DNA of 43,873 bases, taken from contig JABIFY010000041.1 of NCBI GenBank assembly GCA_018650465.1, forward strand, positions 1-43,873, written 5' to 3'. The translations under genes and the position numbers were made by a program. Within the stretch, counting starts at the first letter, position 1; every line of letters starts with the position of its first letter. Under the pieces are notes generated by a model, which searched no databases, had not been told where the DNA came from, and was given only the letters and a program-made list of their open reading frames with translations. The stretch comes from Alphaproteobacteria bacterium (lineage in GTDB: Bacteria > Pseudomonadota > Alphaproteobacteria > UBA2966). Of the stretch, positions 17,495 through 32,944 are shown one piece after another.

Positions 17495-19414
17495 ATGACA
17501 ACGAATAGCGAACCAATCGATCTGACACCCTTGCCTATTGTCATTGTCGGCCACGTCGATCACGGCAAATCAACCCTTGTTGGACGATTGTTGCACGACA
17601 CCAACAGTCTGCCCGAGGGCAAAGTTGAAGAGTTAAAGGCCCAGGCTGACCGACGCGGTGTGGCTTTTGAGTGGTCCTATGTCATGGATGCCCTGCAGGT
17701 CGAGCGCGACCAGGGCATCACCCTTGATACCACCCGCATCTGGTTCAAAACGCCAAACCGTCGCTATGTGATAATTGATGCGCCTGGCCACAAGGAATTC
17801 CTCAAGAACATGGTCACCGGTGCGGCCGCCGCCGACGCTGCCTTGTTGGTAATTGATGCAGAACAGGGCGTGTCGGAGCAAACCAGGCGGCATGCTTATT
17901 TGCTGCATTTGCTGGGTGTGCCTGAAGTTGCAGTTGTCATCAACAAAATGGATCTGGTGAACTATTCGCAGGAACGTTTTATGACTGTGGAAGCGCAAAT
18001 TCGTAAATATCTACGTGAACTTGGCATTGCTGCCAAAGCGATTATTCCGGTTTCCGCCCGTGATGGCATCAATATCAACAAGCGATCTGACGATCGGGGC
18101 AAATCTCGCATGGGGTGGTGGAAGGGTAATAATGTTGTTTCCGCCCTGGACAGCTTTACGGCTCAGAACGCCCCTACCGAACAGGGATTGCGTTTCCCTG
18201 TCCAGGATGTTTATCGCCAGGGCGATCAGCGTTATCTGGTGGGTCGCATTACCAGCGGCCTGATCCGGGTCGGCGATCAATTACAGTTTTCACCGGGCGG
18301 TCAAACGGCGAGGGTGCAGTCCATTATCGATCCGGGCCAGACGAACAACCCTTCTGCCAGTCTGAGCACGAGTTTGACCAGTGGGGCCGGACAATCCATC
18401 GCCCTGACCCTGGATGAAGAAATATTTGTTGAGCGTGGGCACATTGCCAGTCATCGAAATGCGACGCCTGTTGAAACCAACACCCTGAATGTGCGCTTGT
18501 TCTGGTTGGACAAAATACCCTTGAACAAGGGCGACCGACTGGTGTTGAAACTGGGTACCGCCGAACACACGGTGACCGTCGCGGATATCAGACGTGTTAT
18601 CGACGTGGAGACTTTGCAGCCCGATCCAGTCAACAACGAGATAAGCCACAATGCGGTTGCCGATGTGACCTTGCGTAGTCGTTCTCGCATGGCGCTGGAT
18701 GCCTTTGTTGATCATCGGGCCACCGGGCGCGGTGTATTGGTGCGGGACTATCGCGTTGTCGGTGGCTGTATCTTTGAAGGCGCGGTCGACCTTGCCGCGG
18801 CCCGCCACCTGACCGCCGTCGATCAAACCGTCACGCAAGTCGAGCGTCTGCAAGCCAATGGCCATGCCGGTGGCGTGCTGTGGCTGACCGGACTTTCTGG
18901 ATCGGGCAAATCAACCCTCGCCATGGCGTTGCAGCGCAAGTTATTTGAACGAGGTGACCAGGTTTATGTGCTGGACGGTGACAATGTCCGCCAGGGTCTG
19001 AATAATGACCTGGGTTTTGGCCCGGTCGACCGCACGGAAAATATCCGTCGCATCGCCGAAGTCGCGAACCTGTTTGCCGATGCCGGTTTTATTGTTGTCA
19101 CGGCCTTCATATCGCCCTACCGGGAAGACCGCGACAACGCCCGTGCCATCGTTGGCAACAAATTCCGCGAAGTCTTTGTCAAAGCCAGCCTCGCCGCCTG
19201 CGAAGGCCGCGACCCCAAGGGCCTGTATGTCAAAGCCAGGGCAGGTGAAATTCCGGAATTTACCGGCATCAGCGCCCCCTACGAAGAACCCTTGTCACCA
19301 GAATTAGTGGTCGATACAGAACATCAGTCTCTGGAGGCGGCCGTCGCAAAAGTTCTGGCAGATATTGACAGGTCCGCCATTCGTTCCGGCGATGAGAAAC
19401 GTAAAGCGGGTTGA
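17495..19414 (+). CDS. cysNC: Bifunctional sulfate adenylyltransferase GTPase subunit/APS kinase
   Basis: This 639-residue fusion joins an EF-Tu-like GTPase (G1 [23 protein letters not shown]) and its beta-barrels to a C-terminal APS kinase starting near residue 460. The kinase has Walker [10 protein letters not shown] (about 467-475), [15 protein letters not shown] and [11 protein letters not shown], so both halves look active. The GTPase drives APS synthesis with CysD; the kinase phosphorylates APS to PAPS. Because the operon reductase is of the APS type, the PAPS made is not needed for reduction and may feed sulfation. It is the last gene of the operon and ends 3 bp from a convergent small gene. 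Confidence 0.93.
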
Positions 19415-19417
19415 GCC

Positions 19418-19639
19418 TTATAATTCGCCGCGGCTCATGGGGCCATGCAGCACCTGACTGAGCAGTGTGAATAAAGCCGCTGATCCAATGATGGTTCCCA
19501 GGAAAATGAACAGGGTCGGTTTGGACCAGGCACCCCATAAAACCGGGATCATGAAAATGGCCACTGCACCGGACAGCGTTTGCAGCGAGCGCAAAAGCCT
19601 GAGGATGGTCAGACGAAAAGTGGATGTGTTTGTCTTCAT
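19418..19639 (-). CDS. Small two-helix membrane protein downstream of the cyclase
   Basis: This 73-residue protein has two hydrophobic segments (about 22-36 and 42-60) with a basic N-terminus, so a small inner-membrane protein is likely. It begins 6 bp after the stop of the large cyclase gene and is probably co-translated with it. No family is recognised. The absence of a clear ribosome-binding site of its own and the convergent overlap-free end 3 bp from cysNC argue for a real but minor gene. A membrane anchor or modulator of the cyclase is a guess from position. Confidence 0.6.
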   Translation of the reverse strand: MKTNTSTFRLTILRLLRSLQTLSGAVAIFMIPVLWGAWSKPTLFIFLGTIIGSAALFTLLSQVLHGPMSRGEL

Positions 19640-19645
19640 GCGTTT

Positions 19646-22600
19646 CTATTGATGCTTTGAAGGAGCTGCCCTGGAAAGAGCTGCCTTTAACCCAGGAATA
19701 ATAGCAATAAACCCTTTTTCTTGCGCGTCGTCCAGCACCTGGCGAGCTTCCGATATGGTTTGATCATCCACCTGACCTCGACCCATGGACGCCATCACCC
19801 GAGCCCGACGAATGATGATATTCATCCAGGGTATGGGTTGAGGAGAGATATATTCTTCGGCAGCGTCCGCAATAGCCTCGGCCCCCTCCCAGTTTTCTGC
19901 AGCCAGCAAGGCATCCATGGCGTTGCGATAGAACCAGATATGGCTGTGCCCGACACAGCCTTGCTCCAGCACGGCCATGCCTTCACTGATAGCGAGGCGC
20001 CGTTCTTCTTCACTGTCCGTCGCCATGGCCAACGCCCCCATGGCCAGGGGGCCTGCAAACCGAATACCTGTTTCCCGACTGATCGCAACTGCCTTGCGGG
20101 CCATATCCACAGCCTTTGCGCGATTGCCTTCAACCAGTTCGATTTGTGTCAGGACGGCAAGATTGACAGGCTCAAACCGTCGGGCACCAATTTTGGCGGC
20201 TATGTCGAGAGCCAGCCCCAACTGTTTGCGGGCCTCTTGATATTCTCCCCTGTCGAACAGGATTTTTCCGCCGCTGCTGCCTCTGGCCACCATTTCTGCC
20301 CGAACATTGCCAGCCTTGACGGCCAGCTCGGCGGCCATCATGGCATTCTTCAAGGCCTCATCCAATTCCAGCAAATATAACTTGGAATGCCCATACATGG
20401 CTCTGTTCACCGGCTCGATCTGCGTCAAACCATGTTGTTCGACAACGGCCAGACAAGCCTGAAAACTGTCATGAGCCGTAATCAAATGCCCTCGCATGAA
20501 CCAGGCATCGCCAAGGCCACTGAGAGCCCTGGCTTCCATGGCCGGGGATGCGGCTTTGCGGGCAAATTGTTGCGCCTGTTCGTGTTCATGCAAGCAACCA
20601 TCAAGATTGCCCATAGGAAAATAAATATTGCCGCGCATATAGTGAATATGCGCCAAGGCTTCGTCATCATTAACCGTTGTCGCCGCAACTTCGGCTTTTT
20701 CCAGGGCCTCAAGGGCATCAGGATAGCGATCAAGAATACGTAAGCCCGCGATTAAATCCAGCAGCAACGGTAATTCCAGGGCGGTTCGCTTCGGCGATTG
20801 AGGCATGGATGCCGTCATCTCCAGACCGCGTTCCAGGTGCCCGACGGCTTCTGCATTGGCCCAGCGTTCGCCAGCCCGGTTCGCTGCTTCTTTCCACAAG
20901 GGCACAGCCTGTTCCGGCGCTTGTGCCTCGGAATAATGATGCGCCAGAATTTCAGCAGGCACTTGATCGTGGCCAACCTGGTCATGCCCGTCTCGACGCG
21001 CAGCCAGGGCCTTGGCGACATCAAGGTGATAACGCTGCCGGGTAGCCTTCAGTAAAGATTCGTAAGCCGTGTCCTGAACCAGTGCATGTTTAAACTGAAA
21101 AGTTGCGGACGGCGGCAAGCTTTGGCGCACAATCAAATCCGCTTCGATAAGCTGCTCCACCGCCGCTCTGAGGCTTTCCAGATCAAGTTGGCAAACCTCG
21201 GCCAGAATGTCTTCATCAAATTGCCGCCCGATGACGGCCGCGATCTGGGCCACTTCCTTGACCGGGGCCATGCGATCCAGCCGAGCCATCAGGCTGTCAT
21301 GCAAGGATCCCGGAATTTCGATTCCCTGCATCTTCCCCGCCAGCCGGTAATTGCCTTCAAACAATTCAAGGGAGCCTGATTCGAGAACAGTTTTTGTCAG
21401 CTCTTCGGCAAACAACGGCACCCCGTCTGTACGTTCTATGATCTGGTTCAGCACATTGTCTGGCAATCCAGCTCCGGCGATACCCCGGATCAGAGCTTCA
21501 CTGTCGCTGCGGCTGAGGCGGTTCAGGGTAAAGGTTGTGACATGTGGGTGGCCAAGCCATGGGGCTTGATATTCCGGTCGCGTACTGAGGACCAATAACA
21601 ACGCGAGATCCCGCAGCCGTTCGATCAGCAAACTGCAAAATTCCTGGGTGGAAGGGTCGATCCAGTGGATATCTTCGCCGATCATGATCAGGGGGCGTTG
21701 ACGGGTTTGGGCCTCCAGCAGAGACAGCAGGGCATCCCAGACCAGACGGCGTTGTTGTTCCGGTGTGCCACCCAAATGTTCTTCCGGCAAGGTTGCCCCT
21801 TCGATCATCACGGAGGCCACAAAAGGCACGATGTCGTCGGTTTCCAACCCGCACGCACTGACGAAATCGTCCAGCTTTTGCAGTCTGAGGGCGGCTGGGT
21901 CTTGTCGCTCAATATTCATCACACGTTCAAGACAGCCGATAATCGGATAAAGCGCTGTGTTGCTGTGAAAAGGCGAACAGGACAAGGTTATCGTGCCGTG
22001 ATCTTCATTTTCAATGCGTCTGCAGAAAGCTTCTACGATGCGGGATTTGCCGACCCCGGCCTCGCCTGACAGCATCACCACCTGACCTTCGCCCGATTTA
22101 CATTGTCGCCAGCGGCCCAATAACAGTGAAATTTCTTCTTCCCGACCGACCAACGGACTAAGGCCTGCTTCGGTTGTCGCTTCAAAACGGCTTGTGGTTT
22201 GGCTTGTGCCCGTTACCCGCCAGGCATTTTCCGGATCCTTAATGCCTTTCAGTTGATGTGGACCCAAATCTTCGTAATCAAAAAAGCCACCGGTCAAACG
22301 ATGCGTCCGGTCACTTATAACAACCGTGTCATATTCTGCCAGGCTTTGAAGGCGCGCGGCCAGATTGGGCGTTACCCCAAGAACAACGCGTTCTTCAGAC
22401 GCCCCTTCACCAATGATATCACCTGCAACGACCACACCGGTGGCAACCCCGATGCGTACATGCAGGGCCAGGTCAGGGCGGACATCCAGATGATTTACTT
22501 TTGCAATGATATCCAGGCCGGCATGAACCGCCCGTTCAGGGTCATCTTCATGCGCCTGGGGATAACCAAAATATACCAGGATGCCATCCCCCATATAGCG

Positions 22601-23038
22601 GGCAATATAACCACCCCATTTTTCGATTTGTGCCGCAGCAGCAGACTGATAGGCAGCAATAACGTCACGCAAATCTTCCGGGTCCAGTTGGCCGGATAAC
22701 TCTGTTGAATCCGCCAGGTCACAAAACATAACCGTCAGGTGACGTCGTTCGGCAGCCCCTTCCCTGGCGAGCGCTGCTTCCCTGGCAGGTGCTCCGTCCC
22801 TAACCGCTGGCTGATTTTTTTCAGAGACCGGGGTGGTGACTGCCGACGGTTGGTCGGTGTTACGCGCATCAAAGCCGCAATTACCGCAGAAATTATTACC
22901 CGCTGGTATTTCACTGCCACATGAAGGGCAGGTGTCGGGCAGTTGCGTGCCACAGCCCCCGCAAAACTTGTTTGTCAGTGGATTTTCCGCCGCGCAAATG
23001 TGGCAGCTGGATACGCCCAGAACCGAACTGTTACTCAC
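19646..23038 (-). CDS. Zinc-ribbon/class III cyclase/AAA ATPase/TPR signalling protein
   Basis: This 1130-residue soluble protein has, in order: two zinc ribbons (Cys12/15/26/29 and Cys37/40/51/54), an Ala/Arg/Glu-rich linker (about 78-98), a class III nucleotide cyclase domain with metal-binding Asp107 (MFCDLADST) and Asp151 (YMGDGILVYFG) and a TPNLAARLQ motif, an AAA-type ATPase with Walker A GEAGVGKS, and C-terminal TPR-like helices to the end. The position normally holding a purine-recognition Lys is Arg147 (IARYMGDG). Such proteins make cAMP or cGMP under control of the ATPase/TPR part. The start is GTG at 23038, after GGTGGGGG. The gene lies 22 bp behind the protease gene and could share its transcript. 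Confidence 0.9.
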   Translation of the reverse strand: MSNSSVLGVSSCHICAAENPLTNKFCGGCGTQLPDTCPSCGSEIPAGNNFCGNCGFDARNTDQPSAVTTPVSEKNQPAVRDGAPAREAALAREGAAERRHLTVMFCDLADSTELSGQLDPEDLRDVIAAYQSAAAAQIEKWGGYIARYMGDGILVYFGYPQAHEDDPERAVHAGLDIIAKVNHLDVRPDLALHVRIGVATGVVVAGDIIGEGASEERVVLGVTPNLAARLQSLAEYDTVVISDRTHRLTGGFFDYEDLGPHQLKGIKDPENAWRVTGTSQTTSRFEATTEAGLSPLVGREEEISLLLGRWRQCKSGEGQVVMLSGEAGVGKSRIVEAFCRRIENEDHGTITLSCSPFHSNTALYPIIGCLERVMNIERQDPAALRLQKLDDFVSACGLETDDIVPFVASVMIEGATLPEEHLGGTPEQQRRLVWDALLSLLEAQTRQRPLIMIGEDIHWIDPSTQEFCSLLIERLRDLALLLVLSTRPEYQAPWLGHPHVTTFTLNRLSRSDSEALIRGIAGAGLPDNVLNQIIERTDGVPLFAEELTKTVLESGSLELFEGNYRLAGKMQGIEIPGSLHDSLMARLDRMAPVKEVAQIAAVIGRQFDEDILAEVCQLDLESLRAAVEQLIEADLIVRQSLPPSATFQFKHALVQDTAYESLLKATRQRYHLDVAKALAARRDGHDQVGHDQVPAEILAHHYSEAQAPEQAVPLWKEAANRAGERWANAEAVGHLERGLEMTASMPQSPKRTALELPLLLDLIAGLRILDRYPDALEALEKAEVAATTVNDDEALAHIHYMRGNIYFPMGNLDGCLHEHEQAQQFARKAASPAMEARALSGLGDAWFMRGHLITAHDSFQACLAVVEQHGLTQIEPVNRAMYGHSKLYLLELDEALKNAMMAAELAVKAGNVRAEMVARGSSGGKILFDRGEYQEARKQLGLALDIAAKIGARRFEPVNLAVLTQIELVEGNRAKAVDMARKAVAISRETGIRFAGPLAMGALAMATDSEEERRLAISEGMAVLEQGCVGHSHIWFYRNAMDALLAAENWEGAEAIADAAEEYISPQPIPWMNIIIRRARVMASMGRGQVDDQTISEARQVLDDAQEKGFIAIIPGLKAALSRAAPSKHQ

Positions 23039-23060
23039 GCCCCCACCTTATCAATGCTTT

Positions 23061-24398
23061 TCAGTCTGTCGTGCAAGACGGCTGTGCCTTGACGAGACCC
23101 CAGCCAAAAACTTTGTCCCGTCCCCGTTTGCCCAGATCAACGGTTTCACGGCGCAGACTGCGGCGCAGGATTTCCGGGTCTGCCCGCTGGCCTTGTGCAA
23201 CGCGCAAGCCAGCCAGCACGGAAATGAACGGCGCCGCATAAGACGTGCCATCGCCCAATTGTCCTTTTGGCCCCACAGGCACCCAGACGCCTTCGCCGGG
23301 GGCTGCGAAATCGACATAGCGTCCTTGATTGGCATTAGCAAAAATTCTGTTTCGACGCCCGACAGCCGTGACAGCAACCACATCGCGGTACGCCGCCGGA
23401 TAGGCTGGCTTGTTCTTTGCTCCCCAGTTTCCAACGGAAGCAATCAAAACCATGCCTGACTTGCGCGCCTTCTTCAGGGCCCTGGCGACGGTTTTATTGT
23501 CCGCACCGGCGATACTGAAATTTACCACTTTCACATTGTTACTGATCAGCCAGTCCAGGGCCTTGAGCAAGCCGCCACTGTTGCCAACGGTTTTGTCCTG
23601 ACGGTCGACTTCAAACATGCTGGCGGCAAACAACTGGGCTCCTGGTAACAAACCGGACCAGCCATTGCGCATGGGCTTACCGATCAGCAAGGTGGCGATC
23701 GACGTCCCGTGTCCATCCTGGGAGGGATTGCGTGTCTTGTCGTGGAACGACCGGTAAACAATGTTTTGCCCCCTGAGGGCCGGATTTCGAACATCAACGG
23801 CACCATCAATCATGCCAATGCGTACACCCTTGCCACAATTCGCCGGAACTTTGGACCAGCCAGCAACCTGGCGTGGAAATCGCAAACGGGTATTGGTGGC
23901 CGATAGATCGTATCGATGGTTCGCATCGATAATCCCCGAAGGATACCGAGCATTTAAATTGCCAATCATTTTCTTGACTGAACTGCCTTTTGGCAACCGC
24001 AGGCGCATCACTTCCAGATTGAGTTTCGGGATCGTGATTTTCTCGATTAATTTCAGTTTCAGGGTTACCATATTTGCCTGGAACTTGCGCGGCATTTGGG
24101 CCACCAGAATTTCACCGGGCTCGAAGTCATCCTCAGGCGCTGGCCGTCCCTCACGCCCTCGCAGGTTATGACGACCCGTTGCCCTGCCTGTGACTCCGTT
24201 CGCCCCACTCTTGCCGGAGACCGAACGTTCTGTCTTCTTGCCCCTGTCATAGGACCGGACTTTAACTTCCGCTATTGCCGATGCCGTGAACAGCACACCC
24301 ATGCCCGCGATCAGCACAACAGAAAAGGCAAGCCGAAGCCGTCGTGAACTGTCTTTCACGAGATCAAAGGTGCAATAACTTCTTGCTTCGGGCATCAA
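23061..24398 (-). CDS. Subtilisin-like serine protease (S8), exported
   Basis: This 445-residue protease has the complete S8 triad: Asp198 (GMIDGAVD), His230 (DGHGTS) and Ser386 (GTSYAAP), with oxyanion Asn324 (SVGNWG). Residues about 21-43 are a hydrophobic signal sequence, so it acts outside the cytoplasm. Residues 45-180 form a basic linker plus a segment reminiscent of S8 propeptides or inhibitor domains (MVTLKLKLIEKITIPKLNLE and on). The target is unknown. It is followed within 22 bp by the cyclase gene. Confidence 0.9.
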   Translation of the reverse strand: MMPEARSYCTFDLVKDSSRRLRLAFSVVLIAGMGVLFTASAIAEVKVRSYDRGKKTERSVSGKSGANGVTGRATGRHNLRGREGRPAPEDDFEPGEILVAQMPRKFQANMVTLKLKLIEKITIPKLNLEVMRLRLPKGSSVKKMIGNLNARYPSGIIDANHRYDLSATNTRLRFPRQVAGWSKVPANCGKGVRIGMIDGAVDVRNPALRGQNIVYRSFHDKTRNPSQDGHGTSIATLLIGKPMRNGWSGLLPGAQLFAASMFEVDRQDKTVGNSGGLLKALDWLISNNVKVVNFSIAGADNKTVARALKKARKSGMVLIASVGNWGAKNKPAYPAAYRDVVAVTAVGRRNRIFANANQGRYVDFAAPGEGVWVPVGPKGQLGDGTSYAAPFISVLAGLRVAQGQRADPEILRRSLRRETVDLGKRGRDKVFGWGLVKAQPSCTTD

Positions 24399-27755: not shown

Positions 27756-28133
27756 ATGGACGCACAGGATTATTCCGAAGTCATCATCTTAGCCCCGACC
27801 GGGCGGGTGGATCACACAAGTGCCGAGGTTTTCCAGACTGAATTGCTGGAACATGTCACAAAATGTGCAGCTGCCGACAAACACATCATTCTTGATCTGA
27901 GCGGTATAGATTACATGAGCAGCGTCGGCCTGCGGGCGTTGATGATCGCCTCAAAGGAAAGTAAGAAAACGGATCTGACCATTGTCGTTTCGGCTTTGCA
28001 GCCCGACATGAAGGAAATATTCGAAATCAGCCGCTTCCACTTTGTCTTCAAGACCTTCGAGACAACCGCCGAAGCGATCAAGGGTTTTTCTGATGCAGCT
28101 GTTGCCGCCTATGCTGCCGCGGGCGAGGGATAA
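27756..28133 (+). CDS. STAS-domain anti-sigma factor antagonist (RsbV-like)
   Basis: This 125-residue single STAS protein (start MDAQDYSEVI) contains LDLSGIDYMSSVGLRAL with Ser56 at the position phosphorylated in RsbV/SpoIIAA. In the partner-switch scheme the unphosphorylated form binds the RsbW-like kinase and the PP2C phosphatase reactivates it. Both partners are encoded in this cluster. The ATG at 27756 is preferred over upstream 27696 because the family begins here. The stop lies 3 bp before the hydrolase start, so the genes are one operon. The C-terminal alanine-rich tail (AAVAAYAAAGEG) is an extension. Confidence 0.88.
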   Translation: MDAQDYSEVIILAPTGRVDHTSAEVFQTELLEHVTKCAAADKHIILDLSGIDYMSSVGLRALMIASKESKKTDLTIVVSALQPDMKEIFEISRFHFVFKTFETTAEAIKGFSDAAVAAYAAAGEG

Positions 28134-28136
28134 CAG

Positions 28137-29096
28137 ATGAAGGTACATTTCTGGGGTACAAGGGGTTCCCTGCCCGTTTCCCTGAACGGCGATGGCGTCC
28201 GCAGGAAAATATTCCAGGCGCTGCAAAAGGCCAATGGCAAATCATTTACGGATGATGCCGCCATCGACAACTTCATGGATACTGAGCTTGCCTTTCATCA
28301 ACGCGGCGGATTTGGTGGATCGTCATCTTGTGTCGAGATCAAAGCGTCGGACCAGGATTATATTATCTGTGACATGGGATCAGGCCTGCGTGAACTGGGT
28401 CAGCAGATCATGCAGGAGCATGGCCCGGGCAAACCGCAAGTCTATAATATTTTTATGTCGCATCCCCATTGGGATCACATTATGGGGTTGCCTTTTTTCC
28501 CACCCGCCTACATTCCCGGCAACAAGTTACGCATACATGGTGGCCACGACACCCTGGAAAAAGCCTTGCGCAAACAGCAAGAAGACCCCTGCTTCCCGGT
28601 TCATTTTGATTTTCTGGGGGCGGATATTGAGCTTATCAAACTATCGCCTGGCGAGCCTTTTCAATGTGGAGATGTGACCGTCCACACAATTGTGCAGCCC
28701 CATCATGGTGATTCTTATGGCTATCGCTTCGAACATGACAACAAGGCCGTTGTTTATTCCACAGACGCCGAACACAAACTGGAATCAGAAACTGAAACAG
28801 CTGAATTTGTTGAATTCTTCAAGGCTGCTGATCTGGTAATTTTTGATGCCATGTACACCATGGCCGACATGATTTCTGTCAAAGAGGACTGGGGTCATTC
28901 CAGCAACATTATTGGTGTTGACCTTTGCCATCGCGCAGGTGTGAAACATTATTGCATGTTCCACCATGAACCCGTGTTTGGTGACAAGGCCCTTGCGGAT
29001 ATTCTCACCGAAACCATTCGTTATGAGGAAATCATTCGAGACGGGCATGAATTGAAAGTCTCGTCAGCTTATGACGGCCTTGAAATCGTGATTTGA
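28137..29096 (+). CDS. Metallo-beta-lactamase-fold hydrolase in the partner-switch operon
   Basis: This 319-residue protein opens with the family's MKVHFWGTRGSLP strand and carries the metal site SHPHWDH (His109, His111, Asp113, His114), His190, Asp210 (YSTD) and His254/His277, so a two-metal site is complete. It resembles the RNase Z/class II cyclic nucleotide phosphodiesterase-like branch rather than true beta-lactamases. A GAGGGA ribosome-binding site precedes ATG 28137. It is sandwiched between STAS and PP2C genes and ends 4 bp before the next start, so it is probably part of the signalling unit. The substrate is unknown; a nucleotide is plausible. Confidence 0.85.
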   Translation: MKVHFWGTRGSLPVSLNGDGVRRKIFQALQKANGKSFTDDAAIDNFMDTELAFHQRGGFGGSSSCVEIKASDQDYIICDMGSGLRELGQQIMQEHGPGKPQVYNIFMSHPHWDHIMGLPFFPPAYIPGNKLRIHGGHDTLEKALRKQQEDPCFPVHFDFLGADIELIKLSPGEPFQCGDVTVHTIVQPHHGDSYGYRFEHDNKAVVYSTDAEHKLESETETAEFVEFFKAADLVIFDAMYTMADMISVKEDWGHSSNIIGVDLCHRAGVKHYCMFHHEPVFGDKALADILTETIRYEEIIRDGHELKVSSAYDGLEIVI

Positions 29097-29100
29097 TGTC

Positions 29101-31239
29101 GTGGCCACTGGCACCCCACTGAACCCTGCGTCCGGCTGGTCAAACCATGCCCTGGCCCGTGGCTTGGCGGCGGAGCACGGTCGTATCGTCGCCGTGATTA
29201 CCTTGTGTCTGATGATCTTGATACAAGCCGTTGTTGCCCAGAGCGGCTTCAATCGCATTGGCCAAAGCCTGATTGATCTTTATCACCGGTTATCGCCACG
29301 CATCGTCGAAAACCTGCCTGTGATCATTGTCGATATTGATGAAGCAACGTTGAAGGCACAGGGTCAGTGGCCGTGGCCGCGGACCCGTTTGGCTGAACTG
29401 ATCAACAAGGTCGGACAGATGAAGCCTCTGGCCATTGGCCTGGATATCATCATGCCGGAAGCGGATCGCTTGTCACCGAGCCGCTTTGCCGCTGAGCATC
29501 CTGGCCTGGCTGCTGATTTACGACAAAGGCTTTCCGGCTTGCCGTCAAATGATGCCATCCTCGCGCAAACCATTGCCCGCTGGCCGGTTGTGCTCGGCCG
29601 GGCAGCCCTGACGAAAAAGCAACAGCCAGACACCCTGGCCCCTGCACCACAAACCCCGGTGCAGATCAGGGGGTACAAACCGCAAGATTTCCTCACGACC
29701 TTCCCTGACCACTTGACCAACGTCGCCCTGATTGAAAAAGCAGCCATGGGTTTTGGTTATCTGAATTCCATACAGGATCCAGACAGCATTATGCGCCGAA
29801 TGCCAACCGTCATCCGGATCGGCGACCAGATGGCCCCCACCATGGCAGTTGAGTTGATCCGGGCGGCCATCGGGGCCAACTGGATTGAGACGGATGCGGT
29901 GCCTGAGGGCATCACGGGCATTCGTATCGGGCAGGTTGCCTTGCCGACAGCAAGAGATGGCTGGGTTGATTTGCATTTTTCAGCCGCCGATTCGCGCCGA
30001 CGCATTTCAGCTCAAAAAATACTGAACGGTTCGGTCGACAAAAATATTCTGGCCCAAAAACTTGTCCTGATTGGCGTCACGGGACTGGGCATTGCAGATG
30101 TCTATGCCACGCCGGTGACGGCGCGTATGGATGGCGTCGAAATACAGGCGCAGTTTGTTGAAAATCTGCTGTATGGCCTGCGTCTGATCAAAGAACCAGA
30201 TTCGACGGCAACCCAGGTGATGCTGCTGCTGCTGGCGGCAGGTTTGTTGATCGCTTTTGGCCCCATCCTGGGTACCGGCTTCATGACAGCCGCAACGATA
30301 ATCACGATTATGCTGGCCTTGCTTGTAGGGTTCGAATATTTCCGCCTCGCCCGACAGATCGTTGATCCGGGCTTCATTATTCTCAGCCTGTTACTCACAT
30401 ATCTCGTGATGATGATTGCGCAGCTGATCGAAGAAGATCGTGACCGTCGTGTGATGGCACATAACCTGCTAATTGAACGGGAAGACAATGCCCGAATGTC
30501 TGGCGAACTAAATGCCGCGCGGGAAATCCAGATGGGTATCTTGCCCGACCCGGAAAGCATTCAGGGCTTGCCAGACGATCTTGAGGTCCACGCCTTTCTG
30601 GAACCAGCCAGGGAAGTAGGCGGCGATTTGTATGACCTCTTTATGCTGGATGAACACCGGCTGTTTTTTGTCATCGGCGATGTTTCTGGCAAAGGTGTTC
30701 CAGCCTCCCTGTTCATGGCGCTCAGCAAGGCCTTGTGTAAAAGCGCCGCCCTGCGTAGCGATGCATCTGTTGCAGAACTGATGACCACGGCCAATGTTGA
30801 AATTTCACGAGAAAATCCGGCTTACATGTTTGTGACGGCAGTTGCCGGGATCATCGATGCCCGGACCGGTGAAATTGAATATTGCAATGCCGGTCATGAC
30901 GCACCCCTGGTTGTTGCCCCCGGACAGGCGACAGTTTCTGTGGACAGCGACGGGGGGCCTCCCTTGTGTGTGATTGATGATTTCGACTATCCCCTGGACC
31001 ATGCCCGGCTGGCCCCCGGTGAAACCCTGGTCTTGACCACTGACGGTGTAAACGAAGCCATGACGGCAAGTCAAAAAATGTTTGGCGGCCATCGCCTGAT
31101 CCAAAACTTGACCCACAATGCAGACGACAACTCACCAAAAAACCTGGCAGCAAAACTCTATGAAAACGTCAAGGAATTTGTCGCCGGAGCGGAACCAAAT
31201 GACGACATTACGATCGTCGCAATCCGCTATCGGGGATGA
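29101..31239 (+). CDS. CHASE2-domain PP2C (SpoIIE-type) phosphatase
   Basis: This 712-residue membrane phosphatase has a first membrane helix at about 21-42, a periplasmic CHASE2 domain (about 55-335; VIIVDIDEATLKAQGQWPWP is its hallmark), three helices at about 360-445, a linker, and a SpoIIE/PP2C domain (about 475-710). Metal ligands are present in REVGGDLYD, VIGDVSGKGVPASL, TTDGVNEAM and PNDDITIV. It should dephosphorylate the STAS protein when an envelope signal reaches CHASE2. The GTG start at 29101 is preceded by a weak ribosome-binding site. CHASE2 is more often fused to cyclases or kinases, so this pairing is notable. Confidence 0.9.
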   Translation: MATGTPLNPASGWSNHALARGLAAEHGRIVAVITLCLMILIQAVVAQSGFNRIGQSLIDLYHRLSPRIVENLPVIIVDIDEATLKAQGQWPWPRTRLAELINKVGQMKPLAIGLDIIMPEADRLSPSRFAAEHPGLAADLRQRLSGLPSNDAILAQTIARWPVVLGRAALTKKQQPDTLAPAPQTPVQIRGYKPQDFLTTFPDHLTNVALIEKAAMGFGYLNSIQDPDSIMRRMPTVIRIGDQMAPTMAVELIRAAIGANWIETDAVPEGITGIRIGQVALPTARDGWVDLHFSAADSRRRISAQKILNGSVDKNILAQKLVLIGVTGLGIADVYATPVTARMDGVEIQAQFVENLLYGLRLIKEPDSTATQVMLLLLAAGLLIAFGPILGTGFMTAATIITIMLALLVGFEYFRLARQIVDPGFIILSLLLTYLVMMIAQLIEEDRDRRVMAHNLLIEREDNARMSGELNAAREIQMGILPDPESIQGLPDDLEVHAFLEPAREVGGDLYDLFMLDEHRLFFVIGDVSGKGVPASLFMALSKALCKSAALRSDASVAELMTTANVEISRENPAYMFVTAVAGIIDARTGEIEYCNAGHDAPLVVAPGQATVSVDSDGGPPLCVIDDFDYPLDHARLAPGETLVLTTDGVNEAMTASQKMFGGHRLIQNLTHNADDNSPKNLAAKLYENVKEFVAGAEPNDDITIVAIRYRG

Positions 31240-31247
31240 ACGTCGTC

Positions 31248-31874
31248 TTACCGTACGATAATCTCAACTCGCCGGTTCAAGGGTTCGGCAACATTATCGC
31301 CGGTGGGGACCAATAGATCACGCTCGCCGCGGCCCGCCGTCAGCACGCGTTTGGTGCCAAGGTCCTGCTTTTGCAACAGCACAGCTACGGCCTCGGCCCG
31401 CTTGAGTGCCAGATTGTCATTGGTCTTCAGACGCCCGACCGTATCCGTATGACCTGTTACCTGAACTTCTGCCACCTGACGACTTGCAACTTCCAACAAT
31501 AACATGCGCATGGCCGGTCGGGATTTCTCCAACAAGTCCGTGCTGCCTTTGGCAAAATAAAGCGTAAAGGACACAGGCTCGGGCGGCACCGCCTGCAAGG
31601 CAGCAGCGAATGTTTTGTCGACCTCTGCTTTATTCAAAGTAACGGCTTCGGCTTGCGTCTTGCCGTCTCCGACGCGGGCCGCAGCCAGGGCAGTATTGAG
31701 CACAGTTTTGTTCGGACCAATGTTCACAATCACCGTGCCGACTTTGCCTTTTGCATCCGCTAACAACACGATCAATTCTGAAGGGCCAGGTTGAGGTGCG
31801 GCACAGGCTGCCATGACAGCAACGACCACCAACAAGATCGAAGCGCGAACACCAGCCTTCAATCCCGTTCTCAT
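31248..31874 (-). CDS. OmpA-family lipoprotein
   Basis: This 208-residue protein has a lipoprotein signal (hydrophobic 11-22, lipobox VMAAC near 20-24) and a C-terminal OmpA/MotB peptidoglycan-binding domain: FAKGSTDLLEKSRPAM, VTGHTDTVGR and LNRRVEIIVR are its marks. A middle segment (25-85) is of unknown fold. It should sit in the outer membrane facing peptidoglycan. The start overlaps the FecR stop (ATGA), and the end converges on the PP2C gene with an 8-bp gap. Confidence 0.88.
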   Translation of the reverse strand: MRTGLKAGVRASILLVVVAVMAACAAPQPGPSELIVLLADAKGKVGTVIVNIGPNKTVLNTALAAARVGDGKTQAEAVTLNKAEVDKTFAAALQAVPPEPVSFTLYFAKGSTDLLEKSRPAMRMLLLEVASRQVAEVQVTGHTDTVGRLKTNDNLALKRAEAVAVLLQKQDLGTKRVLTAGRGERDLLVPTGDNVAEPLNRRVEIIVR

Positions 31875-32332
31875 TTAACTACTCCCGCATCATCAACCTT
31901 GACCAGAAAGCGTGTGCCCCGCACCCCCAGGATTGAGGCAGGCGTCATTACCTTCATGGCATCGGGAGAGCGCTTGGCGATTTGGCCAGAGATGACCGAC
32001 AGGGTGCCACGTTTGACGCGGGTATTGAACTCGCCATCATGGGTGGTCGAATTAAACCGGAAACGACTGAGTTCGATGCGACTGTTGGGCCCGGATGACA
32101 TCCGGGTACTGTCAATAAATGTCATGCCAAGCTGGCCATCGGGGCCTGTCACAATCGTGTCTGCCTGTTCGAGCGCATCACCGGCGTTGGCTGCAATTGT
32201 CTTGCCGCCCCGGACGATTTCAACTTTGCCCTTCAAGGTCTTGATCTGGCCGATATCCGCCAGACCCGGCTGCCCAAACATCAGCAATAATCCAAGAACT
32301 GCAATGAGCGTTAATCCTGTCCGCACAAACAT
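31871..32332 (-). CDS. Periplasmic FecR-domain protein
   Basis: This 153-residue protein has a signal peptide (about 7-25, probable cleavage GLA-DI) and then a single FecR domain, with marks GDALEQADTIVTGPDGQLGMTF, RIELSRF, RVKRGTLSVISG and PASILGVRGTRFLV. Unlike classical FecR it lacks an anti-sigma cytoplasmic domain and a membrane anchor, so it is periplasmic. GGGGGG precedes the ATG. It is translationally coupled to the OmpA lipoprotein gene. FecR proteins of this kind often accompany CHASE2 signalling proteins, which supports a shared envelope-sensing role. Confidence 0.88.
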   Translation of the reverse strand: MFVRTGLTLIAVLGLLLMFGQPGLADIGQIKTLKGKVEIVRGGKTIAANAGDALEQADTIVTGPDGQLGMTFIDSTRMSSGPNSRIELSRFRFNSTTHDGEFNTRVKRGTLSVISGQIAKRSPDAMKVMTPASILGVRGTRFLVKVDDAGVVK

Positions 32333-32542
32333 AAACCGTTCCCCCCGTTTATATATCCATCATTAAAATACCAAAGCCGCACAAAAGCGAGGAGAGAATT
32401 CCTGGGCAACGATGAGAAAGCAGGAAAATTCATGGACAGGAAAAATGTTCAATCCAAGGTGTATTGCATTGAACCGCAGACATTGGCGATAATGGCAATA
32501 ATGGTTCAAACTCATTATTGACGCCCAGGCATTGAGGATACT

Positions 32543-32944
32543 TTGCAGAGAAAACTTCAATATGGTCCTTTGTTGACCCACGAAGCCGTCGAATTTGTCG
32601 AACAGGTCGGCCTTGCCTACAGTCTGGCACCCACTGTTCGCCACAGGCTGACCCTGATTGTTGAAGAACTGGTCAGCAACAGCGTGAATCATGGCAAAAT
32701 GAAAGCGGACGGACATATTGAACTGGATGTTGAAGTTGAGAATGATATCGCCAGCCTGCGTTACGTCGACACCGGCATTGAATTTGACCCGATTGGCAAC
32801 GCACCACAGGATGATCGCCATCTGGCGGCAATCGACCGGCGCGTTGGTGGACTGGGCTGGCCCCTTATCAAAGACCTGTCGACGAACCTGAGCTACCTGC
32901 GCCAGGACGGACAAAACCAGATCACTCTCAGTCTGGCGCTTTAG
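32543..32944 (+). CDS. RsbW-like serine kinase (HATPase_c_2)
   Basis: This 133-residue GHKL ATPase is of the RsbW/SpoIIAB type. The N-box VEELVSNSVNHG contains Glu42 and Asn46, the G1 motif is YVDTGIEFDP with Asp76 and the G2 motif VGGLGWPLI near 101-109. There is no histidine-phosphotransfer domain, so it should phosphorylate the STAS serine and inhibit a client protein. The start is TTG at 32543, with GAGGA just upstream. It lies alone on the plus strand behind the inverted OmpA-FecR pair, so it has its own promoter or depends on read-through. No sigma factor gene is near. Confidence 0.8.
   Translation: MQRKLQYGPLLTHEAVEFVEQVGLAYSLAPTVRHRLTLIVEELVSNSVNHGKMKADGHIELDVEVENDIASLRYVDTGIEFDPIGNAPQDDRHLAAIDRRVGGLGWPLIKDLSTNLSYLRQDGQNQITLSLAL

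Follow-up and report, generated by a model that had tools for sequence, protein, structure and literature searches.

The stretch of DNA analysed here, 43,873 nucleotides long and called the window below, is contig C75 of the alphaproteobacterial draft genome G000 (4.8 Mb, 163 contigs, 98.9% complete). Between positions 27756 and 32944, from the first base of a STAS gene to the last base of a kinase gene, it carries six genes that form a partner-switching set with the STAS phosphoserine position, the metal ligands of the PP2C phosphatase and the N, G1 and G2 boxes of the kinase. Mechanistically this is a partner switch, conserved and functional-looking, and the module was not found described in the literature searched: nothing was retrieved on CHASE2 together with partner switching and STAS, nor on MBL together with a STAS domain and SpoIIE. 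What stands out most as new is the pair of STAS and MBL genes, which is constant.

Three genes follow each other on the + strand with gaps of just 3 and 4 bases. The first (27756..28133, 125 aa) encodes a STAS switch protein resembling anti-sigma-factor antagonists (Pfam STAS 3.7e-20; TIGR00377 above cut-off), the second (28137..29096, 319 aa) an MBL-fold metallo-hydrolase resembling RNase Z, PhnP or phosphodiesterases (Lactamase_B_2 1.1e-16), and the third (29101..31239, 712 aa) a fusion of a CHASE2 membrane sensor with a PP2C/SpoIIE phosphatase (CHASE2 1.1e-51, SpoIIE/PP2C 5e-47). The CHASE2 domain scores 176 bits against a cut-off of 26.3 and lies N-terminal to membrane segments and output domain, the architecture of a CHASE2 sensor; hydropathy places hydrophobic segments near residues 29-47, 373-391, 393-411 and 425-443. 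Convergent to the phosphatase gene, on the - strand, are the genes for an OmpA-family lipoprotein (31248..31874; Pfam OmpA 4.2e-15), with a lipobox-like MAAC behind a hydrophobic signal, and for a periplasmic FecR-domain protein (31871..32332, 153 aa; Pfam FecR 1.4e-10), the end of fecR and the start of ompA overlapping in the sequence ATGA. According to hydropathy and Pfam, the FecR protein has its sole hydrophobic segment, a signal peptide, at the N-terminus and carries no cytoplasmic anti-sigma domain. Divergent from fecR, across an intergenic region (32333..32542) whose divergent order is also kept in distant genomes, lies the + strand gene for an RsbW/SpoIIAB-type serine kinase (HATPase_c_2; 32543..32944, 133 aa; Pfam 1.8e-15), which starts with TTG at 32543 after a GAGG ribosome site.

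None of the six components shows a sign of decay. The first-pass annotation of this DNA had described a complete trio of switch proteins with key residues and a CHASE2 input, and the comparison with relatives bears this out. Ser56 of the STAS protein aligns with the phosphosite position of SpoIIAA, its best match in the PDB, where TM1442 matches as well; the residues S55, S56, G58, L59 and R60 do not vary among 12 relatives. The PP2C ligands D509, D512, D527, D648, D701 and D702 are invariant in 14 aligned relatives, and E42 and N46 (N box), D76 (G1) and G102/G105 (G2) of the kinase in 13 members of its family, which are otherwise just 22-31% identical to the kinase of the window. RsbW (6m36, 1.4e-11) and SpoIIAB are the top solved-structure matches of the kinase, and it stays below the cut-offs of the NCBIfam equivalogs for RsbW and SpoIIAB (20.3 vs 145 bits for PRK04069; 19.7 vs 135). 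The kinase would be expected to phosphorylate the STAS protein, the phosphatase to reverse this and an exchange of partners to follow.

The hydrolase has an intact active site as well, since H109, H111, D113 and H114 (HxHxDH), H189, D210 and H276 are invariant in 11 relatives. Its best models are those of RNase Z (57.8 bits, far under the cut-off). The match to the NCBIfam model of cyclic nucleotide-degrading phosphodiesterases, which we take to represent Rv1339, is weak at 37.5 bits against a cut-off of 400. Thus, the hydrolase shares the MBL superfamily with the atypical class II cyclic nucleotide phosphodiesterases of the Rv1339 type (PMC9293780) but falls far short of their model and scores higher with RNase Z. 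AlphaFold models of the hydrolase and of the CHASE2-PP2C protein, made from alignments of 2-3 sequences, had pLDDT values of 43 and 41, too low for a fold search.

Distribution of the neighbourhood and linkage to the kinase

When the full-length CHASE2-PP2C protein was searched against 289 class genomes, the long matches came from a small number of different families. STAS and MBL genes adjoin each other in 17 alphaproteobacterial genomes, and in 14 of these the CHASE2-PP2C gene comes next, as it does in a betaproteobacterial metagenome-assembled genome (L065). Relatives with the order STAS-MBL-CHASE2/PP2C are G194, G281, G230, G197, G081, G082, G093, G080, G195, G525, G608, G656, G679 and L065, the operon of G195 being split across two contigs. 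The closest relative among the genomes compared, 'Alphaproteobacteria bacterium SI054_bin61', has all six genes in identical order with 73-90% protein identity. The neighbourhood recurs in many families and is therefore not confined to close relatives; such confinement is what the first-pass annotation had named as speaking against its proposal. OmpA and FecR genes convergent to the phosphatase gene were found in the window, G194, G281, G081, G093, G525, L065 and G163; in the last the phosphatase is without CHASE2 and STAS-MBL was not seen.

The hydrolase was detected in 15 of 385 class genomes (E 1e-70) and, among 398 genomes of the phylum, close matches were found in three, the genome of the window among them. 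The module is therefore rare and scattered but old. In the class to which G320 belongs (48 genomes) the MBL of the system was not found, and the MBL relatives in a plasmid collection are all distant (<60% identity), the two inspected lacking the system. PADLOC gave no meaningful match, and a reading as a defence system was rejected on this ground.

Two loci differ in their detail. The genome G081 has tandem STAS genes upstream of the MBL gene (L052:6992-7940), both with the phosphosite serine. In G679 about 2.3 kb of foreign DNA (L175:4473-6735) interrupts the CHASE2-PP2C gene. The two ends of this insert resemble one half each of a macro-domain gene, which would fit a circular element that opened within that gene when it integrated; an assembly artefact might also explain it.

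The kinase gene is linked to the operon in a less strict manner. A member of the kinase family was present in ten of ten hosts tested, unlinked cases included. In 10 genomes the kinase gene is divergent to fecR or fecR-ompA, and in four of them this arrangement lies away from the operon: in G230 and G608 the distant kinase gene is still divergent to fecR-ompA, in G197 and G082 to fecR alone. In a census of the kinase across the class, FecR was located within 1.5 kb of the kinase gene in 7 of the 11 hosts, compared with none of 19 other kinase loci (Fisher p 1.6e-4; this and all other co-occurrence counts are uncorrected for shared ancestry). Seven of 12 hosts encode no SpoIIE-type phosphatase above cut-off other than the CHASE2 protein; thus, a single circuit made up of all six genes is most likely. 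The hosts in which an unlinked kinase has no alternative SpoIIE phosphatase above cut-off are G281, G230, G082, G195 and G608.

It might be argued that two separate systems are neighbours here, an operon of STAS, MBL and CHASE2/PP2C genes and a FecR-OmpA-kinase cassette unrelated to it, since the halves are unlinked in G230, G608, G197 and G082 and the cassette is broken up in G281 and G093. However, each of the four genomes with unlinked halves carries both of them, the kinases of G230, G608 and G082 have no other phosphatase of this type to work with, and among the loci examined the FecR-kinase arrangement is limited to hosts of the system. We consider this separation very unlikely. The first-pass annotation had called the company of MBL and FecR/OmpA genes an unusual combination; their presence was confirmed, whereas the comparison makes them integral parts of the neighbourhood and not odd company.

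An mlaE gene whose product has an N-terminal STAS domain stands divergent to the unlinked kinase gene in both G080 and G195 (L119, L121). A STAS-domain MlaE permease was not counted as a recurrent partner of the kinase, since both genomes belong to one genus.

The presence of FecR next to CHASE2 is not limited to this module. FecR is encoded near 13 of 30 CHASE2-cyclase loci and near none of 19 control loci (Fisher 6e-4, again uncorrected for phylogeny), and a FecR gene also adjoins a CHASE2 gene in Campylobacterales (L066). Because of this flanking, the simplest reading is that the FecR protein and the OmpA lipoprotein might form the periplasmic arm, or sensor side, of CHASE2. A role of FecR as sigma regulator of the FecIRA type was rejected: the protein consists of 153 aa with signal peptide and FecR domain only, and neither an extracytoplasmic function (ECF) sigma factor nor a TonB receptor gene neighbours it at the locus. 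A similar pairing is known from the BiofilmReg operon of Burkholderia, in which a LysM-FecR protein is encoded with a CHASE2 histidine kinase, a response regulator and a DUF4136 protein, and a strain with an interruption in the response regulator gene had lost its ability to form biofilm (PMC5192318). The output of that operon consists of the histidine kinase and the response regulator, without PP2C, STAS or MBL. The module thus joins FecR-linked CHASE2 sensing with sigma-free partner switching, each known apart, and CHASE2 gains defined envelope partners as candidates for tests.

Other groupings of these domains exist. In G098 (L057, a 1.2 Mb genome) a CHASE2-PP2C gene is followed by genes for a 435-aa unknown protein and a 504-aa FecR protein, with no STAS or MBL gene nearby, which is a second way of pairing FecR with CHASE2-PP2C. 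In G246 (L105) an MBL relative has genes for FecR and for a CHASE2 cyclase beside it, a further grouping of MBL, FecR and CHASE2.

The MBL-fold hydrolase and the output of the switch

The hydrolase gene adjoins the STAS gene in each of the 17 genomes that have the pair, and it encodes the best conserved part of the system, with a mean column identity of 66% compared with 49 for the phosphatase, 40 for the STAS protein and 33 for the kinase. The genome G126, which shares its family with G230 and G679, retains STAS and MBL genes, followed downstream by a gene resembling an aldehyde dehydrogenase instead of the phosphatase. Its STAS protein reads ISNGG where the others have xSSxG, so that Ser56 is replaced by Asn in this genome only, while every metal ligand of its hydrolase is intact; no kinase was detected in it at E 1e-14, the threshold of the kinase census across the class. 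G690 contains a STAS-MBL-kinase operon without CHASE2-PP2C. As both genomes keep the pair without the full switch, STAS-MBL looks like the core of the module and kinase and phosphatase like its control. Together with the conservation of the hydrolase, the pattern in G126 suggests that the hydrolase may be the controlled output.

On balance, we lean towards reading the six genes as one envelope-gated partner switch with the hydrolase as its most likely output. The signal would be supplied or modulated by the periplasmic FecR protein and the OmpA lipoprotein, presumably anchored to peptidoglycan, and received by the periplasmic CHASE2 domain. CHASE2 would in turn govern the PP2C domain, which would dephosphorylate the STAS protein at Ser56, and phosphorylation of this serine by the RsbW-like kinase would restore the earlier state. 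The ratio of free to phosphorylated STAS protein would then decide which partner it binds, the hydrolase of the same operon being the likeliest one; the kinase may also have a transcription factor as its client. More tentatively, and with somewhat less than an even chance in our view, STAS might bind and gate the hydrolase depending on phosphorylation of Ser56, the substrate being a signalling or envelope-related molecule, possibly a nucleotide, and G126 would then represent STAS-MBL without the switch.

Several observations weigh against a single circuit with the hydrolase at its end. In G112 the CHASE2-PP2C gene does not have STAS-MBL next to it, and in G246 the contig stops after the MBL gene, showing that the gene arrangement is not universal. 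Neither the kinase gene nor the operon has FecR/OmpA nearby in G080 and G195. The case of G126 is that of one genome, and the absence of kinase and phosphatase throughout it is defined by strict thresholds. The hydrolase could instead act upstream of the switch, or its substrate might have nothing to do with the binding of STAS.

Control of an enzyme by a partner switch through a STAS-like protein has precedents. SiaC of the SiaABCD system of Pseudomonas aeruginosa acts on SiaD (PMC7647112), HsbA of the HsbR-HsbA-HsbD system targets the cyclase HsbD and also FlgM (PMC6482189), and BgrUVW of Sinorhizobium meliloti acts on BgrR, as cited in PMC7647112. The enzyme outputs of these three systems are diguanylate cyclases, whereas the enzyme linked to the switch here is an MBL hydrolase. 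Of the phosphatase, just the PP2C part matches the SiaA model (44.8 bits, cut-off 700). Because diguanylate cyclases are known sigma-free outputs (PMC7647112), the switch might act through a client elsewhere, such as a cyclase or another component of second-messenger or other signalling, the hydrolase serving feedback or housekeeping. A Cache-HAMP-GGDEF gene does lie beside the kinase gene in the betaproteobacterial locus (L065:4352-6145), but it is the only GGDEF neighbour, none being present among the other flanking genes scanned with Pfam, and we regard a distant client of this kind as doubtful. With the hydrolase as output, the module provides a conserved and testable enzyme, and if the STAS protein indeed gates it, this would be a class of partner-switch output beyond sigma factors and diguanylate cyclases.

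Sigma factors and the general stress response

The classical systems RsbU-RsbV-RsbW and SpoIIE-SpoIIAA-SpoIIAB share with the window a SpoIIE-family PP2C phosphatase, a STAS protein with the phosphoserine position and an RsbW-type HATPase kinase with all motifs. The module differs from them in the absence of a sigma gene, in the CHASE2 domain and about four membrane segments on the phosphatase, in the constant MBL neighbour and in the FecR/OmpA cassette. By analogy, the kinase could act as anti-sigma factor on a sigma factor whose gene lies elsewhere; this factor would be released when PP2C dephosphorylates the STAS protein, with the hydrolase as accessory enzyme. In line with this, RsbW and SpoIIAB are the nearest solved structures of the kinase, and RsbW-type domains of proteobacteria do bind sigma factors, as CrsR and HsbR do with RpoS (PMC6482189). 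However, no sigma, anti-sigma or shared regulator gene was found by the operon or by the unlinked kinase genes, conservation is lowest in the kinase, and G126 retains STAS-MBL without a detected kinase. A classical sigma switch is thus a serious candidate but an unlikely one.

The first-pass annotation had noted that no sigma or anti-sigma client is encoded at the locus, and this extends to the flanks of the window and of the relatives examined, those of unlinked kinase genes included. It is less remarkable than was thought at that stage, since sigma-free partner switches have already been published (PMC7647112, PMC6482189). A client gene shared between the flanks was sought and rejected, as the all-against-all comparison of flanking proteins yielded just the six families themselves, antisense frames, metabolic genes and common families; the shared proteins from outside the module are, for example, MDR dehydrogenases, and histidine kinases and ABC-type proteins in a few loci. 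A Pfam scan of the genes adjoining unlinked kinase genes found nothing recurrent.

The absence of a sigma gene had also been contrasted with the PhyR-NepR-EcfG pathway, by which Alphaproteobacteria usually run the general stress response. NepR (PF18557) was undetected in G000 and 8 further hosts (9 of 12 in all) and is present in G608, G525 and G093. At this sensitivity only 47 of 289 class genomes have NepR at all; therefore, the contrast carries no weight, and the idea that the switch replaces PhyR-NepR-EcfG was rejected. The switch is neither an exception to this pathway nor an obvious replacement for it. A scan for the EcfG-type promoter (GGAAC-GTT) upstream of the operons of the relatives gave one chance-like match.

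The same genome contains a second partner-switch set on contig C68 (L062, about 19184-23443), which consists of a STAS protein, a PAS-PP2C protein and a REC-HATPase fusion. It adjoins the genes for a PAS protein and an MCP chemotaxis receptor and is apparently a chemotaxis-linked switch. Elsewhere in the window (19646-23038) a large protein is encoded that combines a zinc ribbon with domains of the class III cyclase, AAA and TPR types, its gene adjoining a subtilase gene and lying near a PAS histidine kinase gene.

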